Shown here: positions 2,335 through 13,287 of the stretch, one piece after another
How the letters are laid out: each line of letters opens with the position of its first letter
How positions within the stretch are numbered: position 1 is the first letter of the stretch
Source: Rhodocyclales bacterium
GTDB lineage: Bacteria > Pseudomonadota > Gammaproteobacteria > Burkholderiales > Rhodocyclaceae
Assembly (NCBI GenBank): GCA_021286885.1
Contig: JAJTBM010000014.1
Span: forward strand, 1 to 18,458
DNA length: 18,458 nucleotides
Reading direction: 5' to 3'
Program-made: the position numbers and the translations under genes
The notes under the pieces: generated by a model
Databases searched by the model: none
What the model was told of the DNA's origin: nothing
The model's input: the letters and a program-made list of their open reading frames with translations, nothing else

Positions 2335-2955
2335 ATGATTGATCAGCTGATTATCGGTTTCGACAAGGCGCTGCGTACGGTCTTCGCCAACGCCCACACG
2401 GTACGCCCGACCCCCGGCGACGCTCTGCCCGAGGCAGACATGAGCGAGGAAGAGCGGCGCCATGCGGCGGCCCTCATGCGCATCAACCACTGCGGTGAAA
2501 TCTGCGCCCAGGCCCTTTATCAGGGGCAGGCGCTGATGTCGGACAACGAAGGCATCAAGCGTGCCCTCGTACAAGCGGCCCACGAAGAAACCGAGCACCT
2601 GGCCTGGACAGAAAAGCGGATTGCCGAGCTGGGCGGGCGCAAGAGCCTGCTCAACCCCCTCTGGTATGGCGGTTCCCTGGCCATTGGCGTGCTGGCCGCC
2701 AAGTGTGGAGATGGGGTGAATCTGGGTTTCCTGGCAGAAACCGAACGCCAGGTTGAGGCCCACCTGGATAGCCACCTGGGCAGCCTGCCGGAACAGGATG
2801 CCCGTTCCCGCTCGATTGTGGCCCAGATGAAGGACGATGAAATCGCCCATGCCGAAACGGCAGTGCGCCTGGGGGCCGTGGAGCTGCCCACCCCCGTGAA
2901 GCTCGCCATGAAGGCCAGCTCCCGGGTGATGACCCGCCTCGCCTACTGGGTCTGA
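2335..2955 (+). CDS. coq7: Ubiquinone biosynthesis hydroxylase Coq7 (demethoxyubiquinone hydroxylase)
   Basis: Coq7 is a carboxylate-bridged di-iron monooxygenase that hydroxylates 2-polyprenyl-3-methyl-6-methoxy-1,4-benzoquinone in late aerobic ubiquinone synthesis. The 206-residue ferritin-like protein shows the iron ligands in their expected settings: NHCGE (E55), HEETEH (E85, H88), [10 protein letters not shown] (around E137-E141) and DDEIAHAE (E169, H172). The segment [10 protein letters not shown] about 114-123 is the membrane-associating region. ATG 2335 was chosen over upstream in-frame codons because AGGAG (2324-2328) precedes it and the family starts MIDQLI. Betaproteobacteria commonly use Coq7 where enterics use UbiF. 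Confidence 0.95.
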
Positions 2956-2974: not shown

Positions 2975-3415
2975 TCAGGCGGCGGCCGGTGCGCTGGGGC
3001 CGGTCTCGATGATTTCCCAGGTGTGCTCGATTTCGGCGGTCTTGCCGAGCATGATGGTGGCCGAGCAGTATTTTTCGGCCGACAGCTTGATCGCCCGCTC
3101 CACGCTGTCCGGCTTGAGCTTGTGCCCCTTTACTACATAGTGGAACACGATGCGGGTGAACACCTTGGGTTCGGTCTCGGCTCGGTCGGCCTTGAGGCTC
3201 ACGGAGCAGCCGCTCACGTCCTGACGGCTGCGCTTGAGGATCAGCACCACGTCAAAGGCGGTGCAGCCACCGGCGCCGGCCAGCATCATCTCCATGGGGC
3301 GGGGGGCAATGTTGCGGCCGCCGGCTTCGGGGGCGCCGTCCATCATCACGGTATGGCCCGAGCCGGTTTCGGCCAGGAAGCTCATGCCATCCACCCATTT
3401 AACTACGCATTCCAT
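2975..3415 (-). CDS. OsmC-like (YhfA-type) thiol protein
   Basis: The 146-residue cytoplasmic protein belongs to the OsmC/Ohr superfamily, whose characterised members reduce peroxides with a cysteine pair. The two conserved cysteines are present: C51 in GAGGCTAFDVV and C117 in AEKYCSATIMLG. The segment RPMEMMLAGAGGCTA is typical of the fold. It resembles the YhfA-like subgroup more than classical OsmC or Ohr, and its substrate is uncertain. ATG 3415 is supported by AAGGAG (complement of 3421-3426) 5 bases upstream. A 45-residue in-frame extension to 3550 is proline/alanine-rich, unlike the family, and would bypass this site. The gene is convergent with coq7, with only 19 bases between the stops. 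Confidence 0.85.
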   Translation of the reverse strand: MECVVKWVDGMSFLAETGSGHTVMMDGAPEAGGRNIAPRPMEMMLAGAGGCTAFDVVLILKRSRQDVSGCSVSLKADRAETEPKVFTRIVFHYVVKGHKLKPDSVERAIKLSAEKYCSATIMLGKTAEIEHTWEIIETGPSAPAAA

Positions 3416-3697
3416 CCTTGCTCCTTCGGTTCGACTGAGATTGTGCGGTGAGGCATGGTTTGAGGTTGCCTTCGGGGCTGATTGTAGCGGGGCTGGTTCT
3501 GGAGGTGTTTCCAGATTTTGCTGCGGCGCAGCATGGGTGCTGGTTTGCAACCCGGGTTCAATACGGGATTTCCGCAGGTTTGCGGGGGTTTTGTGATTTA
3601 TTTTTGTTTTAAAACATATGCTTGCGTATCGTTTTTGAGCAATATGTTTTTTTTATGGGTAGATTAGAATTTTTGTGCGGCGATGCACAAAAAAAAC
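3416..3697. other. Non-coding region with AT-rich segment upstream of the small RNA
   Basis: No supported gene lies here. The first part (to about 3590) has GC typical of the window and must hold the promoter of the leftward OsmC-like gene, though I cannot point to convincing boxes. From about 3590 to 3697 composition becomes markedly AT-rich with long T and A runs. At 3670-3693 TTTTTGTGC and GCACAAAAA form a 9-bp hairpin. The A-tract 3689-3696 directly abuts the -35 element of the downstream small-RNA promoter and could serve as an UP element. Confidence 0.5.
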
Positions 3698-3726
3698 TTG
3701 CCTCAGGAAGAGGGCTGGATAATAAT
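3698..3726 (+). promoter_or_regulatory. Sigma70-type promoter of the small RNA
   Basis: TTGCCT (3698-3703, 4/6 to consensus) and AATAAT (3721-3726, 5/6) are separated by exactly 17 bases. An eight-base A-tract (3689-3696) lies directly upstream as a possible UP element. This places transcription start at about 3733. The -10 can also be read in neighbouring registers of the same AT-rich patch. Confidence 0.55.
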
Positions 3727-3732
3727 GACCTC

Positions 3733-3834
3733 AGTCCAGTTGCTTTTGTAGTTTGGAGCGACTGAAGAGTGTCTCCTCCACCCTCCTCCTTTGGTGTGGA
3801 TTTAGCGCAGATCCCCCGATCTGCGCTTTTTTTT
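3733..3834 (+). ncRNA. Candidate small RNA with anti-Shine-Dalgarno loop
   Basis: The unit is about 100 nt, from a predicted start near 3733 to a strong intrinsic terminator. Hairpin 1 pairs CAGTTGCT (3737-3744) with AGCGACTG (3757-3764), including one G-U. A CU-rich stretch follows. CACC (3779-3782) and GGTG (3793-3796) close a short stem whose loop is CTCCTCCTTT (3783-3792). The CCTCCTTT within it equals the anti-SD tail of 16S rRNA, and a further CTCCTCC lies at 3773-3779. The terminator hairpin (3804-3827) completes the RNA. No plausible peptide is encoded. It could bind ribosome-binding sites of mRNAs broadly, or act through a C-rich loop as some proteobacterial small RNAs do. I recall a described toxic betaproteobacterial small RNA with an anti-SD motif; membership cannot be checked here. 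Expression is not proven. Confidence 0.65.
3804..3834 (+). terminator. Intrinsic terminator of the small RNA
   Basis: AGCGCAGATC (3804-3813) and GATCTGCGCT (3818-3827) form a perfect 10-bp stem with a CCCC loop. The run of eight T (3827-3834) begins with the last stem base. It isolates the small RNA from the rplM promoter 19 bases further on. Confidence 0.92.
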
Positions 3835-3852
3835 GATTTTTTTCCGTAGGGT

Positions 3853-3881
3853 TTGACACGGCCAGGATCGCCGGATAGAAT
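3853..3881 (+). promoter_or_regulatory. Sigma70 promoter of rplM-rpsI
   Basis: A perfect -35 TTGACA (3853-3858) and TAGAAT (3876-3881, 5/6) are separated by 17 bases. Transcription should start near 3888, giving a leader of about 50 nt before rplM. The strength fits a ribosomal protein operon. Confidence 0.85.
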
Positions 3882-3905
3882 CTGCGGCTTTCCGAATTAT
3901 GGTCG

Positions 3906-3921
3906 TTCCCGGTGTCGGGAA
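3906..3921 (+). promoter_or_regulatory. Leader hairpin upstream of rplM (possible L13 autoregulation site)
   Basis: TTCCCG (3906-3911) and CGGGAA (3916-3921) form a perfect 6-bp stem with a GTGT loop in the short rplM leader, ending 6 bases before the GAGGA ribosome site (3928-3932). L13 is known to repress its own operon through the leader in E. coli; that this hairpin is the corresponding operator is an inference from position only. Confidence 0.4.
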
Positions 3922-3938
3922 AAGTCTGAGGAATCTTC

Positions 3939-4367
3939 ATGAAAACTTTTTCTGCCAAGCCGCATGAGGTCAAGCGTGACTGGTTCGTTGTTGACGCAAC
4001 GGATCTGGTCCTTGGTCGGCTTGCTGCCGAAGTTGCCCGCCGTCTGCGTGGCAAGCATAAGGCTATCTATACTCCGCACGTCGACACCGGTGACTACATT
4101 GTCGTCGTGAACGTTGAAAAGCTGCGCGTCACTGGCAACAAGGCCCAAGACAAGAAGTACTATCGCCACTCCGGTTACCCCGGCGGCATCTACGAAACCA
4201 ACTTTACCAAGCTGCAACAGCGCTTCCCCGCTCGCGTGCTGGAAAAGGCCGTCAAGGGCATGCTGCCCAAGGGCCCGCTCGGCTACGCCATGCTGAAGAA
4301 GCTGAAGTGCTATGCCGGTGCTGAGCACCCGCATGCCGCCCAGCAGCCCAAAGTTCTCGCGATCTAA
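3939..4367 (+). CDS. rplM: 50S ribosomal protein L13
   Basis: L13 is a core protein of the large ribosomal subunit and an early 23S rRNA binder. The 142-residue product matches the family's usual length. It begins [20 protein letters not shown] and contains the conserved [17 protein letters not shown] (about 27-43) and [21 protein letters not shown] (about 107-127). The ATG at 3939 has GAGGA at 3928-3932, 6 bases upstream. It is the first gene of the two-gene rplM-rpsI operon, driven by the promoter at 3853-3881. Codon use is biased, as expected for a highly expressed gene. Confidence 0.98.
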
Positions 4368-6636: not shown

Positions 6637-7212
6637 TCAGGCAGCAGCCTTCTTGGTGCTCTTGGCAGCCGGGGCGGCAGCGGTGGAGGCGGTCACGGCC
6701 TTCACGGTGGCGCTGGTGGCGGCAGCCACGTTGGCTTCGGCGATTTCGGCTACTTGCTTGGCAGCCTTGCTCACGCTGTCGTAGGCGGAGTTGGCGGCGG
6801 CGATGGCAGACTTCACAGCGGCCACGGCCACGTCGGAGCCGGCCGGGGCGGACTTGGCGGCCTTGTCCAGGGCGCTGGTGAAGTTCTTGTTGGCTTCGGC
6901 CACTTGAGCTTCGAACAGCTTGGAGAATTCTTCCTGGGTTTGGGTGCTGATTTCGTAGACGCTACGGGAGTAGGCCACGGCCTTTTCCACCAGGGGCTGG
7001 GCCAGGGAGGTTTGCAGGGCCACCAGCTCTTGCACGTCCTTCACAGCCAGCAGGGCCTTGGCGGAAGCAACGGAGTCTTCCAGCACGGCGCGGGCGGTGT
7101 TCAGGTTCAGGGCAGCCAGGCGCTCGGCGCTGGCGAAGGCGGCGTTGGCCAGGGTCAGCACGGTTTCGATGTTGGCCTTGTTGGCGGCGACGATTTGTTC
7201 GGGGGTGGTCAT
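6637..7212 (-). CDS. phaP: Phasin family protein (PHA granule-associated)
   Basis: Phasins coat polyhydroxyalkanoate granules and limit their size. The 191-residue product starts MTTPEQIVAANKANIETVLT, and is alanine-rich and helical throughout, with FASAERLAALNLNTARAVLEDS (about 26-47) and VYEISTQTQEEFSKLFEAQ typical of the phasin_2 family. The C-terminus is an Ala/Thr/Lys tail (SATVKAVTASTAAAPAAKST) like those of granule and nucleoid-linked phasins. ATG 7212 is set by AAGGAG (complement of 7219-7224) 6 bases upstream. The in-frame extension to 7287 would start in the promoter. The gene is monocistronic, between its own promoter and a bidirectional terminator. Which paralogue it is cannot be told. 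Confidence 0.9.
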   Translation of the reverse strand: MTTPEQIVAANKANIETVLTLANAAFASAERLAALNLNTARAVLEDSVASAKALLAVKDVQELVALQTSLAQPLVEKAVAYSRSVYEISTQTQEEFSKLFEAQVAEANKNFTSALDKAAKSAPAGSDVAVAAVKSAIAAANSAYDSVSKAAKQVAEIAEANVAAATSATVKAVTASTAAAPAAKSTKKAAA

Positions 7213-7274
7213 GACAATCTCCTTGAATGGGTGGCGCATTATGGAATCAGCCTTGCAACGCCCCGCGTTTCTGG

Positions 7275-7283
7275 TGCATCGCA
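7275..7283. promoter_or_regulatory. TGC-N3-GCA site downstream of the phasin start site
   Basis: TGCATCGCA (7275-7283) lies about 5-13 bases after the predicted phasin transcription start. A second TGC-N3-GCA lies upstream of the -35 (7334-7342). The PHA repressor PhaR is known to bind TGC-rich repeats at phasin promoters, with sites on both sides of the start in Cupriavidus; assignment here is inference. Confidence 0.4.
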
Positions 7284-7294
7284 ACATGGCTCCA

Positions 7295-7322: not shown

Positions 7323-7333
7323 TAGCTTTTTGT

Positions 7334-7342
7334 TGCGTTGCA
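7334..7342. promoter_or_regulatory. TGC-N3-GCA site upstream of the phasin -35 box
   Basis: TGCGTTGCA (7334-7342) sits 11 bases upstream of the phasin -35 element within the near-palindrome TTGTTGCGTTGCACAA. Together with the site at 7275-7283 it brackets the promoter, an arrangement consistent with PhaR control. No regulator gene is present in the window. Confidence 0.4.
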
Positions 7343-7462
7343 CAAATGTGACAGGCATGGCTGATCTTGTTGTTATAAAAGCTTTTTTAGGTAGGTGTGT
7401 GAATAATTGGAGCAGGCGGAGGGGCGGCTGTCGAGTTTTGCGTCACGTACTCAAGGTCAAAC

Positions 7463-11748: not shown

Positions 11749-12435
11749 TCAGGCCGAGGTACACACCGTGTACAAGGTAGTTTCATTCAGATCTGCGGGG
11801 GCAATGGCGGCGCTAGTCGCGCTGCCGTTGGCCATCAGGCGCACGCTGCCGGTGTTGGGCAAGCCATCATCCATGTTGATGTCCACCTGCTGGGCGAGCC
11901 GGCCACTGATGTTGTCCTGACACACAAACAGGCTCCCGCCCCAGCCGGTGATCGGGCTGGTGCTGGTCACGCCGATCCGCCCACCCACCGCATTGCGCGG
12001 CAGCCAGGTGGTGACGTCCATCCCTTCCGCCCCCGGGTTGCGGCCATCCCCGCCCGCCAGATTGGCCAGGCGTACGTGCTGCCAGAACAGCAGCGATTCA
12101 TCCGTTGCGGTGGTGGAGTTCCAGTTCCCATCCACCCGCCCGTTGCCCACGGTGCCCCCCGTGCTGGCGGTGATCGCCCCGGCCAGGTGCGCGGCTGCGC
12201 CGGGGTCATCCCCCGGTAGGCTGCGGAAGCGGTCTTGGTAGGTGTGCAGATGGCTTGCGGTGGTGCGGAAATCATTCACCAGATTCTTGACCCGGGCGCT
12301 GTTGATCAGCTCTTGCCCCTTGAGCACCCCGCCCAGCAGCAGGCCGATCACGACCAGTACCACGGCCATTTCCACCAGGGTGAAGCCTCTTTGTGGTTGA
12401 TGCAGGGGCGCGTTGTTGTTGTACATGCGATGCAT
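11749..12435 (-). CDS. Type IV prepilin-like protein, PGDDP family
   Basis: The 228-residue protein has a 17-residue basic leader ending QRG, then FTLVEMAVVLVVIGLLLGGV with glutamate at mature position 5. This is a class III signal cut and methylated by a PilD-type peptidase. The helix continues into KGQELINSARVKNLVNDFRTTASHLHTYQDRFRSLPGDDP (to residue 78), a pattern I associate with uncharacterised pilin-like proteins of Burkholderia and relatives. Two cysteines late in the chain (FVCQDN and near-terminal TVCTSA) could form the usual pilin disulphide loop. ATG 12435 has GAGGAG (complement of 12443-12448) 7 bases upstream. It is the last gene of a four-gene cassette and could be its main subunit or another minor pilin. 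Confidence 0.8.
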   Translation of the reverse strand: MHRMYNNNAPLHQPQRGFTLVEMAVVLVVIGLLLGGVLKGQELINSARVKNLVNDFRTTASHLHTYQDRFRSLPGDDPGAAAHLAGAITASTGGTVGNGRVDGNWNSTTATDESLLFWQHVRLANLAGGDGRNPGAEGMDVTTWLPRNAVGGRIGVTSTSPITGWGGSLFVCQDNISGRLAQQVDINMDDGLPNTGSVRLMANGSATSAAIAPADLNETTLYTVCTSA

Positions 12436-12540
12436 GGAAAGTCTCCTCGGAACAGTGTGAGCATATGAAAGGAGCTGCCTGCTGGCGGGCTCCGCCTCGT
12501 TCTGCGGGGGCGTGGCTGGATGCTTGTTGTTGTACGGATT

Positions 12541-13287
12541 TCAGGGTTCCTTGCCGGCCTGGATCAGGCGCAGGGCGATGAGGTTGGGCGAGATCCAACT
12601 TACCCGGTCATCAAAGGCGCCGCCCGGCGTATCGGGATTGAGGGACAGACTGCGGCTGTAGATCCGGGTGCTGGTGCTGAGGGCGTTTTGTTCTTCGTCG
12701 CTGCCGTTGGGCGGCATGGGGAGGGTGCTCCCCCGGGCGTCGGTGGCGCCCAGCCCGTTGGGCCCGTGGGATAAAAACAGCACCACGGCCTTGCCATCGG
12801 TACTGGTGAGGCTCTGTTCGCTGCCGTCCGGGTTACGGGTCTGAATGCTCAGGGTGCCGGAGGCTGTGCCGTTGAGGGCCGTCCAGCTGGCGCTGAGGGA
12901 GGTGCTGAAGCTGCTGTGCACCGCGTAGTGGATGCGCCGGTCCCAGCCATCCAGGCCGCTTACTCCCAGGGTGGCCCAGGGGAGCAGGCCCCGGCTGCGG
13001 GTACAGGTGCCGCTGCTGCCATTGCGATCTTCGGTGCCATCCATGCCGCTGCGGGCGGGGCAGGGGAAATAGCCCTTGCGCACCAGAAAGCCCAGCAGCG
13101 CATCCCGGGTTTCTTCCAGGGCCGCGTCGGTGGCCTGTTCCTGGCGGCGTGCCATGTGGCTGGACAGCCCACTGACCAGCCCACTCGCCAGCAGGCTCAG
13201 GATGAGTAACACCATGGCCATCTCGACCAGGGTAAAGCCCCGGGCACGATGCGGGGTAAGGGAGGAGGCGGGCAGGGGTTGCGGCAT
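12541..13287 (-). CDS. Prepilin-type protein with FPCP motif (minor pseudopilin candidate)
   Basis: The 248-residue protein has a class III prepilin signal: leader ending RARG (residue 17), then FTLVEMAMVLLILSLLASGLV with Glu5. After the helix come ALEETRDALLGFLVRKGYFPCP (56-77) and a cysteine-containing GTCTRSRGLLPWATLGVSG...WDRRIHYAV block. This layout matches the neighbouring 388-residue protein (LLGY...LPCP...GLLPYRTL...LWYAV), so the two appear paralogous. The usual acidic calcium motif is degenerate here (DGTEDRNG). ATG 13287 follows the upstream stop by 12 bases, and its ribosome site AAGGAAT overlaps that stop, so translation is probably coupled. No assembly function can be assigned. 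Confidence 0.78.
   Translation of the reverse strand: MPQPLPASSLTPHRARGFTLVEMAMVLLILSLLASGLVSGLSSHMARRQEQATDAALEETRDALLGFLVRKGYFPCPARSGMDGTEDRNGSSGTCTRSRGLLPWATLGVSGLDGWDRRIHYAVHSSFSTSLSASWTALNGTASGTLSIQTRNPDGSEQSLTSTDGKAVVLFLSHGPNGLGATDARGSTLPMPPNGSDEEQNALSTSTRIYSRSLSLNPDTPGGAFDDRVSWISPNLIALRLIQAGKEP

Follow-up and report, generated by a model that had tools for sequence, protein, structure and literature searches.

An RF02278 anti-Shine-Dalgarno sRNA between osmC and rplM, with upstream palindromes that suggest control by PhaR

Anatomy and family of the sRNA

An 18,458-nt stretch of a Rhodocyclales genome (assembly GCA_021286885.1, contig JAJTBM010000014.1; the whole stretch is called the window here) carries a transcription unit without a reading frame in the gap that separates rplM from a divergently transcribed osmC-like gene. 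The gap was found to be a compact sRNA unit on the + strand, composed as follows.

3698..3703, + strand: -35 box TTGCCT
3721..3726, + strand: -10 box AATAAT, with a predicted transcript start near 3733
3737..3764, + strand: 5' hairpin of the leader, from a fold of the predicted leader; its sequence varies among relatives
3770..3834, + strand: match to RF02278 (Betaproteobacteria_toxic_sRNA), cmscan 67.1 bits
3770..3776, + strand: single-stranded start of the conserved core, UGUCUCC, lying within Site 1 of the Bordetella sRNA S17; the stem's UCC comes next
3777..3800, + strand: anti-Shine-Dalgarno (anti-SD) hairpin, whose loop UCCUCCUUU (3784-3792) contains CCUCCUUU, as in the 16S tail
3804..3834, + strand: intrinsic terminator of 10 pairs with a loop of 4 and eight T

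Most of this anatomy agrees with an earlier note made from the letters of the window. The -35 and -10 boxes are separated by the 17 nt that it had given and match the consensus at 9 of 12 positions; within 3400-4000, two promoter-like sites were found, against a shuffle average of 0.3. The G-U-containing 5' hairpin is also present in the folded predicted leader (about 3737-3764), with 10 pairs instead of the 8 bp originally described. The second stem does present an anti-SD loop, which reads TCCTCCTTT, hence CCTCCTTT sits inside the loop; the second CTCCTCC directly before it (3773-3779) and the perfect terminator were likewise recovered. Both the unit (3731-3834) and its core with terminator (3770-3834) fold far better than shuffled sequences (z = −6.1 and −7.4, respectively), the start and ends of the transcript being predicted ones. 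Among relatives, 81 of the 82 parsed leaders were folded, with starts that are guesses from promoter-like hexamers (median z = −1.3, 27 below −2); 5' hairpins appear from these folds to be common, yet weak in some genomes.

The suspicion that the RNA belongs to, or is related to, a toxic betaproteobacterial sRNA was confirmed by cmscan against Rfam, in which RF02278 was matched over its full length (positions 1-64 of 64) with a score above the curated cut-off of 50 bits (E = 7e-12), and the CU-rich core with hairpin and terminator is in place. The window sRNA is a real conserved gene, a new member in its own genome of a known family. That genome (80.5% complete, 611 contigs) gave one match. 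Within the GTDB family, RF02278 was detected at E ≤ 0.001 in 113 of 121 genomes (above cut-off in 90 of 121), and within the order in 151 of 240 (above cut-off in 89 of 240); none of 14 control genomes gave a match.

The family is widespread and its core is conserved almost to the letter. Among 233 unique copies, 231 had GTCTC near the start and two did not, and GTCTCCTCC was letter-identical in 226 of those 231; CUCC or CCUC was kept within positions 10-30 in 224 of 231. The conservation across relatives that had been proposed as a check holds for the near-invariant core as well as for the second stem, in which changes are compensated. As to stem covariation, the expectation was borne out at positions 10-13 of the second hairpin by a per-sequence fold count (position 11: C-G 145, U-A 43, A-U 17, G-C 3, U-G 1, unpaired 22), but MAFFT and RNAalifold aligned 230 unique core-and-terminator sequences poorly and returned almost no consensus fold. 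The 11-nt strings preceding the T-run comprised 193 distinct ones among 230 copies. The reported identity of the loop with the 16S 3' tail could be verified against a same-genus genome, G036, in which CCTCCTTT is part of the tail (...GGATCACCTCCTTTCTAGAG); a search of the window's own assembly yielded no 16S tail, and a match to the tail in another genome (G094) lay outside any 16S context.

Locus and upstream palindromes

The genes around the sRNA, and a promoter downstream of it, are the following.

2335..2955, + strand: coq7 (PF03232), a conserved neighbour
2975..3415, − strand: OsmC-like protein gene (PF02566), divergent from the sRNA
3853..3881, + strand: separate, near-consensus rplM promoter TTGACA-17-TAGAAT, past the sRNA terminator
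3939..4367, + strand: rplM, encoding L13 (PF00572), a conserved neighbour

The coq7-osmC-rplM locus is kept across many Betaproteobacteria. From 110 loci, for which 80 regions were chosen among the matches listed (mostly the best per genome, with some second or weak copies), 107 copies were parsed by a letter pattern and a T-run, without repeats; 82 lie at the coq7-osmC-[sRNA]-rplM locus and 25 elsewhere. Three loci yielded more than one copy and nine yielded none (L057, L080, L082, L089, L098, L099, L101, L102 and L107, the last being a repeat of L083). Of the 82 locus copies, 68 stand between an upstream osmC and a downstream rplM, 12 have only osmC beside them and two have only rplM. In the order outside the family, at least one of coq7, osmC and rplM stands beside 56 of 91 copies in genomes with PhaR, the repressor discussed below, and beside 7 of 40 copies without a PhaR hit, one of the seven being in the family.

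Among 16 named loci whose neighbours were read, osmC and rplM are both within range in 9-10: one of two Burkholderia loci, Paraburkholderia (n = 1), two Cupriavidus, Ralstonia, Herbaspirillum, Noviherbaspirillum, Thauera and Pandoraea. The second Burkholderia locus has rplM alone, following the sRNA, whereas the other one and that of Paraburkholderia lie between the two genes. Accumulibacter, Aromatoleum and Caldimonas have osmC and coq7, and two Bordetella loci and one of Achromobacter have coq7 alone, with no osmC or rplM within the searched range. As judged from genomes of near relatives, the coq7, osmC and rplM neighbourhood is probably shared with the loci of S17 and of the Burkholderia sRNA ncS27. 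Since S17 has been published beside coq7, as are the two Bordetella loci here, S17 and the window sRNA are most likely orthologous; the ncS27 locus, between BCAL3348a and BCAL3349, is probably the same one.

Absent from the earlier note were two palindromes upstream of the sRNA, resembling YTKNTGCRNYGCANMAR, the consensus that PMC12849132 derives for PhaR in Ralstonia eutropha, and scored by us at up to 2 mismatches.

3518..3534, no strand: distal PhaR-like palindrome TTGCTGCGGCGCAGCAT, 1 mismatch to YTKNTGCRNYGCANMAR
3675..3691, no strand: proximal PhaR-like palindrome GTGCGGCGATGCACAAA, 2 mismatches, ending 6 nt before the -35 box

Both also pass the threshold of 3 mismatches near a promoter given in the accessible part of PMC12849132, and both fall in intervals used by relatives. 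Counted from the core, a site was present at −130..−50 in 72 of 82 locus copies and at −270..−190 in 38 of 82 (both intervals in 36, at least one in 74, neither in 8), while four control intervals held sites in 1 of 82, 82, 81 and 82 copies, respectively. Chance-like matches were seen at +225..+245, inside the rplM coding sequence, in 11 of 82 copies. In copies away from the locus, the -35 box itself carries the site, at about −38, and 17 of 25 of these copies have one in −60..+20. The initial motif test used a TGC-N3-GCA pattern noticed upstream in the same sequences, so that the tests with the published consensus, which partly reuse loci where the pattern was noticed, carry the PhaR claim.

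The total in the window, 7 palindromes with up to 2 mismatches against 3.25 expected, is only modestly above expectation (7 or more were counted in 10 of 200 shuffles). Among the 40 named copies, taken from 39 of 80 named loci, 33 have a site within 300 nt and seven have none, including two of three Cupriavidus copies. The exact consensus occurred 81 times in ten genomes, compared with 9 for the reversed pattern, and the sRNA accounts for one of the 5 exact sites in G010 and for one of the 6 found in G005. Among the genes next to other exact sites, viewed by eye at 20 loci, are a likely phaB-type reductase and many genes with no obvious connection to polyhydroxybutyrate (PHB). At the two Bordetella loci by coq7, both in genomes with PhaR, the palindrome spans the -35 box, TTGCAT or TTGCAA; the published -35 box of S17 is TTGCAT (PMC11722255).

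Some variants of the upstream region were also observed. All seven copies of the family f20 in the comparison outside the GTDB family (L208, L216, L217, L218, L227, L229 and L230) have CGC in place of TGC in the left half-palindrome, as in ATGGCGCACCGCACAAA, and their preferred site may thus be a shifted one. A different string, ATTTCGYANTGCARAT, precedes the -35 box in five of nine upstream regions (L264, L275, L285, L328 and L299, from three Cupriavidus, one Ralstonia and one Paraburkholderia) and is possibly the site of another regulator. The distal site of the window (3518-3534) lies ~100 nt upstream of the osmC start, and the divergent osmC could share its control.

Co-occurrence with PhaR and the phasin genes

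A search for PhaR as PF07879 was positive for 116 of the 121 genomes in the GTDB family (two sets, 77 of 80 and 39 of 41) and for 164 of 240 in the order. The window's own genome, 80.5% complete, gave no PF07879 match and three phasin matches; both same-genus genomes searched have PhaR. Outside the family, palindromes at these positions accompany PhaR: a site within 160 nt was seen in 55 of 91 copies from PhaR-positive genomes (49 of 61 genomes; shuffle mean 4.0), compared with 3 of 40 copies without a PhaR hit (3 of 33 genomes; shuffle mean 1.1). All 91 PhaR-positive copies score above 50 bits, whereas the 40 include 11 below the cut-off and one family genome, G012; when copies above the cut-off only were counted, 2 of 29 had a site. 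The exact 12-base core TGCRNYGCANMA occurred in 49 of 91 copies with PhaR versus 0 of 40 without a PhaR hit, and for copies at the same locus the numbers were 43 of 56 versus 1 of 7. Because PhaR-less genomes cluster by family, these copy counts are non-independent, and Fisher tests, which ignore kinship, serve for orientation only; counted by family, a site was present in 16 of 18 with PhaR versus 3 of 11 without, two families standing on both sides. The association is incomplete: at up to 2 mismatches, no site was seen for 36 of the 91 PhaR-positive copies, and of the 35 that are not at the locus only 12 have one. All 34 named genomes tested are PhaR-positive, including those of the seven copies without a site. 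In the comparison outside the family, G204 has PhaR and no site, and G250 has PhaR and only one site, with 3 mismatches. The sole same-locus exception in the other direction is G012, whose phaR may be absent from the assembly rather than from the genome, given that five phasin matches were found in it, one of them preceded by an exact site.

Phasin genes, as expected PhaR targets, served as a positive control, and the window contains one of them, about 3 kb from the sRNA, with two PhaR-like sites.

6637..7212, − strand: phasin gene (PF09361), expected PhaR target
7271..7287, no strand: PhaR-like site with 1 mismatch, directly after the phasin -10 box TATAAT
7330..7346, no strand: exact PhaR consensus, directly upstream of the phasin -35 box TTGACA

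Of 30 regions upstream of phasin genes in 22 genomes of the family, 29 contain the palindrome at up to 2 mismatches (shuffle mean 2.5), the 30 being the listed phasin matches that came with the loci. The phasin promoter of the window has the same layout as that of phaP1 of Ralstonia eutropha, where PhaR, a PHB-granule repressor of a phasin gene, has sites directly upstream of the -35 box and around the start (PMC12849132, accessible part). The sRNA gene resembles phaP1 in having a site directly upstream of its -35 box, but phaP1 is a protein gene, and the second site of the sRNA is far upstream, away from the start.

Readings of the locus and its published relatives

We consider it probable that the window's RF02278 sRNA pairs with ribosome-binding sites (RBSs) through two CU-rich anti-SD stretches, with PhaR as its likely repressor and PHB storage as the condition that lifts the repression. 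PhaR, binding at the two window sites, would silence the sRNA gene and let go of it once PHB granules attract the protein; that it would repress here, and not activate as it does phaP3 in Ralstonia eutropha (PMC12849132), is suggested by the position of the sites and by analogy with phaP1. The two anti-SD stretches would then pair with the RBSs of mRNAs and repress these targets by covering the site, with assistance from Hfq and possibly trimming by RNase E to a form of ~65 nt, as relatives, S17 among them, lead us to infer. Genes for carbon uptake and catabolism would be lowered by the anti-SD RNA, and stored carbon would in this way feed back on intake; turning down uptake and catabolism after storage is the purpose that we infer. 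On balance we also lean towards the broader proposal that in Betaproteobacteria the RF02278 sRNAs serve as the PHB regulon's RNA arm, with PhaR leaving for the granules and the RNA lowering uptake and catabolism. Control by PhaR and PHB is likely to be a new insight, based on the position of the palindromes, their co-occurrence with PhaR and the phasin control. No link of PhaR to RF02278, ncS27, bdhR1 or S17 was found in the titles, abstracts and passages of the open literature searched, and the word is absent from PMC11722255 and from the main text of PMC5688073.

The same RF02278 anti-SD sRNA could carry a palindrome that is read by some other regulator with a PhaR-like site, or that is an ordinary promoter element, a reading which we hold to be unlikely and yet worth serious attention. 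TTGC also belongs to the -35 box, the palindrome overlaps it in most copies away from the locus, and the lack of a site within 2 mismatches in 36 of the 91 PhaR-positive copies fits this reading as well. On the other hand, the window site lies upstream of the -35 box and not on it, a second interval at −270..−190 is used by 38 of 82 copies, the identical palindrome precedes 29 of 30 phasin regions, and it is nearly absent where PhaR was not found. Quite improbable, in our judgement, is a broad growth inhibitor, a mimic of the 16S tail that would lower general translation and be tied to growth rate through the ribosomal protein operon, as the earlier note had imagined. The loop does equal part of the 16S tail, and the family owes its name to toxicity in E. 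coli; however, rplM is served by a promoter of its own, other loci hold 25 of the 107 parsed copies, Bordetella loci have no rplM within range, and the palindromes suggest dedicated control. Growth-rate control by position is not supported, given that promoter and those copies, and the palindromes point to carbon-storage control instead. Of the idea that such an RNA acts on RBSs, the part that stands is the action itself, since CU-rich stretches are the means, shown or predicted, by which published relatives do so, while broad sequestering is at odds with the 91-92 Bordetella genes that rise without S17 and with an S17 that hardly slows E. coli (PMC11722255, as far as accessible). Least credible of all is that the unit is a leader or attenuator of rplM-rpsI, whose terminator would gate read-through into the operon without making a separate RNA: it is on the same strand and the terminator is 104 nt from the rplM start, but the near-consensus promoter at 3853-3881 lies between the two and led us to reject this reading, copies without rplM as the next gene retain the core, and relatives are, in the published material accessible, free sRNAs on northern blots.

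Published relatives, cited here from the accessible parts of the papers, supply the mode of action considered above. S17 of Bordetella belongs to RF02278 by that paper's own note on bdhR1 and has, like the window sRNA, a leader before a core with Sites 1 and 2 and a terminator; its promoter is of the sigma-A type. It is an Hfq-binding RNA that RNase E shortens from 190 to 67 nt, and its Site 1 pairs with the BP2158 leader to repress that gene, as compensatory changes confirm; 70 of 91 S17-affected genes match its single-stranded sites, and exponential growth of E. coli BL21 was not slowed, or at most weakly inhibited (PMC11722255). The two RNAs differ in leader length (about 123 nt in S17L versus about 37 nt predicted here) and in that Bvg-mode control and the Hfq and RNase E steps are established for S17, whereas the window sRNA is known from sequence. 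ncS27-type RNAs of Burkholderia (PMC5688073, PMC4603805, PMC10987360) share with it the double hairpin and the CU-rich unpaired stretches, and a longer form of ncS27 can be processed to a short one. The Burkholderia double-hairpin RNAs, three to five per genome compared with one in the incomplete genome here, have their predicted targets at the RBSs of genes for carbon transport and metabolism (PMC5688073). Overexpression of ncS27 slows growth (PMC5688073), also on several single substrates (PMC10987360), and growth inhibition on overexpression has been reported for some RF02278 members.

If PhaR is the regulator, an RNA that mimics the ribosome would place the translation of many metabolic genes under the control of the storage polymer, and there would be a physiological reason for the growth effects reported on amino acids and sugars. 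PhaR would further become a candidate for the unnamed repressor that has been postulated at the S17 promoter (PMC11722255), and for the regulator of the Burkholderia copies, three homologues of which share an upstream motif while the regulator of their accumulation is called unknown (PMC5688073). An alphaproteobacterial precedent for PhaR on an sRNA exists in MmgR of Sinorhizobium, whose gene is repressed by PhaR (AniA) via a palindrome and tied to PHB (PMC12542648, PMC8401924, accessible parts); MmgR, likened here by description only, belongs to a different RNA family, alpha-r8 of the alphaproteobacteria, and has phasins as proposed targets. The NmsR sRNAs of Neisseria, also compared by description only, use CU-rich unpaired stretches against RBSs (PMC5688073).

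Further observations concern the family and the window. In Burkholderia cenocepacia H111, insertions that hit ncS03 and ncS27 came under positive selection in two host models (PMC12013268, accessible part), a selection that would fit RNAs restraining metabolism. RF02278 copies can be clustered, with five within about 3.5 kb in G044 (L055, 2799-6340) and pairs 0.3-1.4 kb apart in two other genomes, at L038 (3003, 4363) and L040 (3003, 3337), and the palindrome core lies at about −38 in eight of nine clustered copies. Elsewhere in the window, at 11749-13287 on the − strand, two adjacent ORFs have the PF07963 N-terminal methylation motif, which suggests a pseudopilin cluster.
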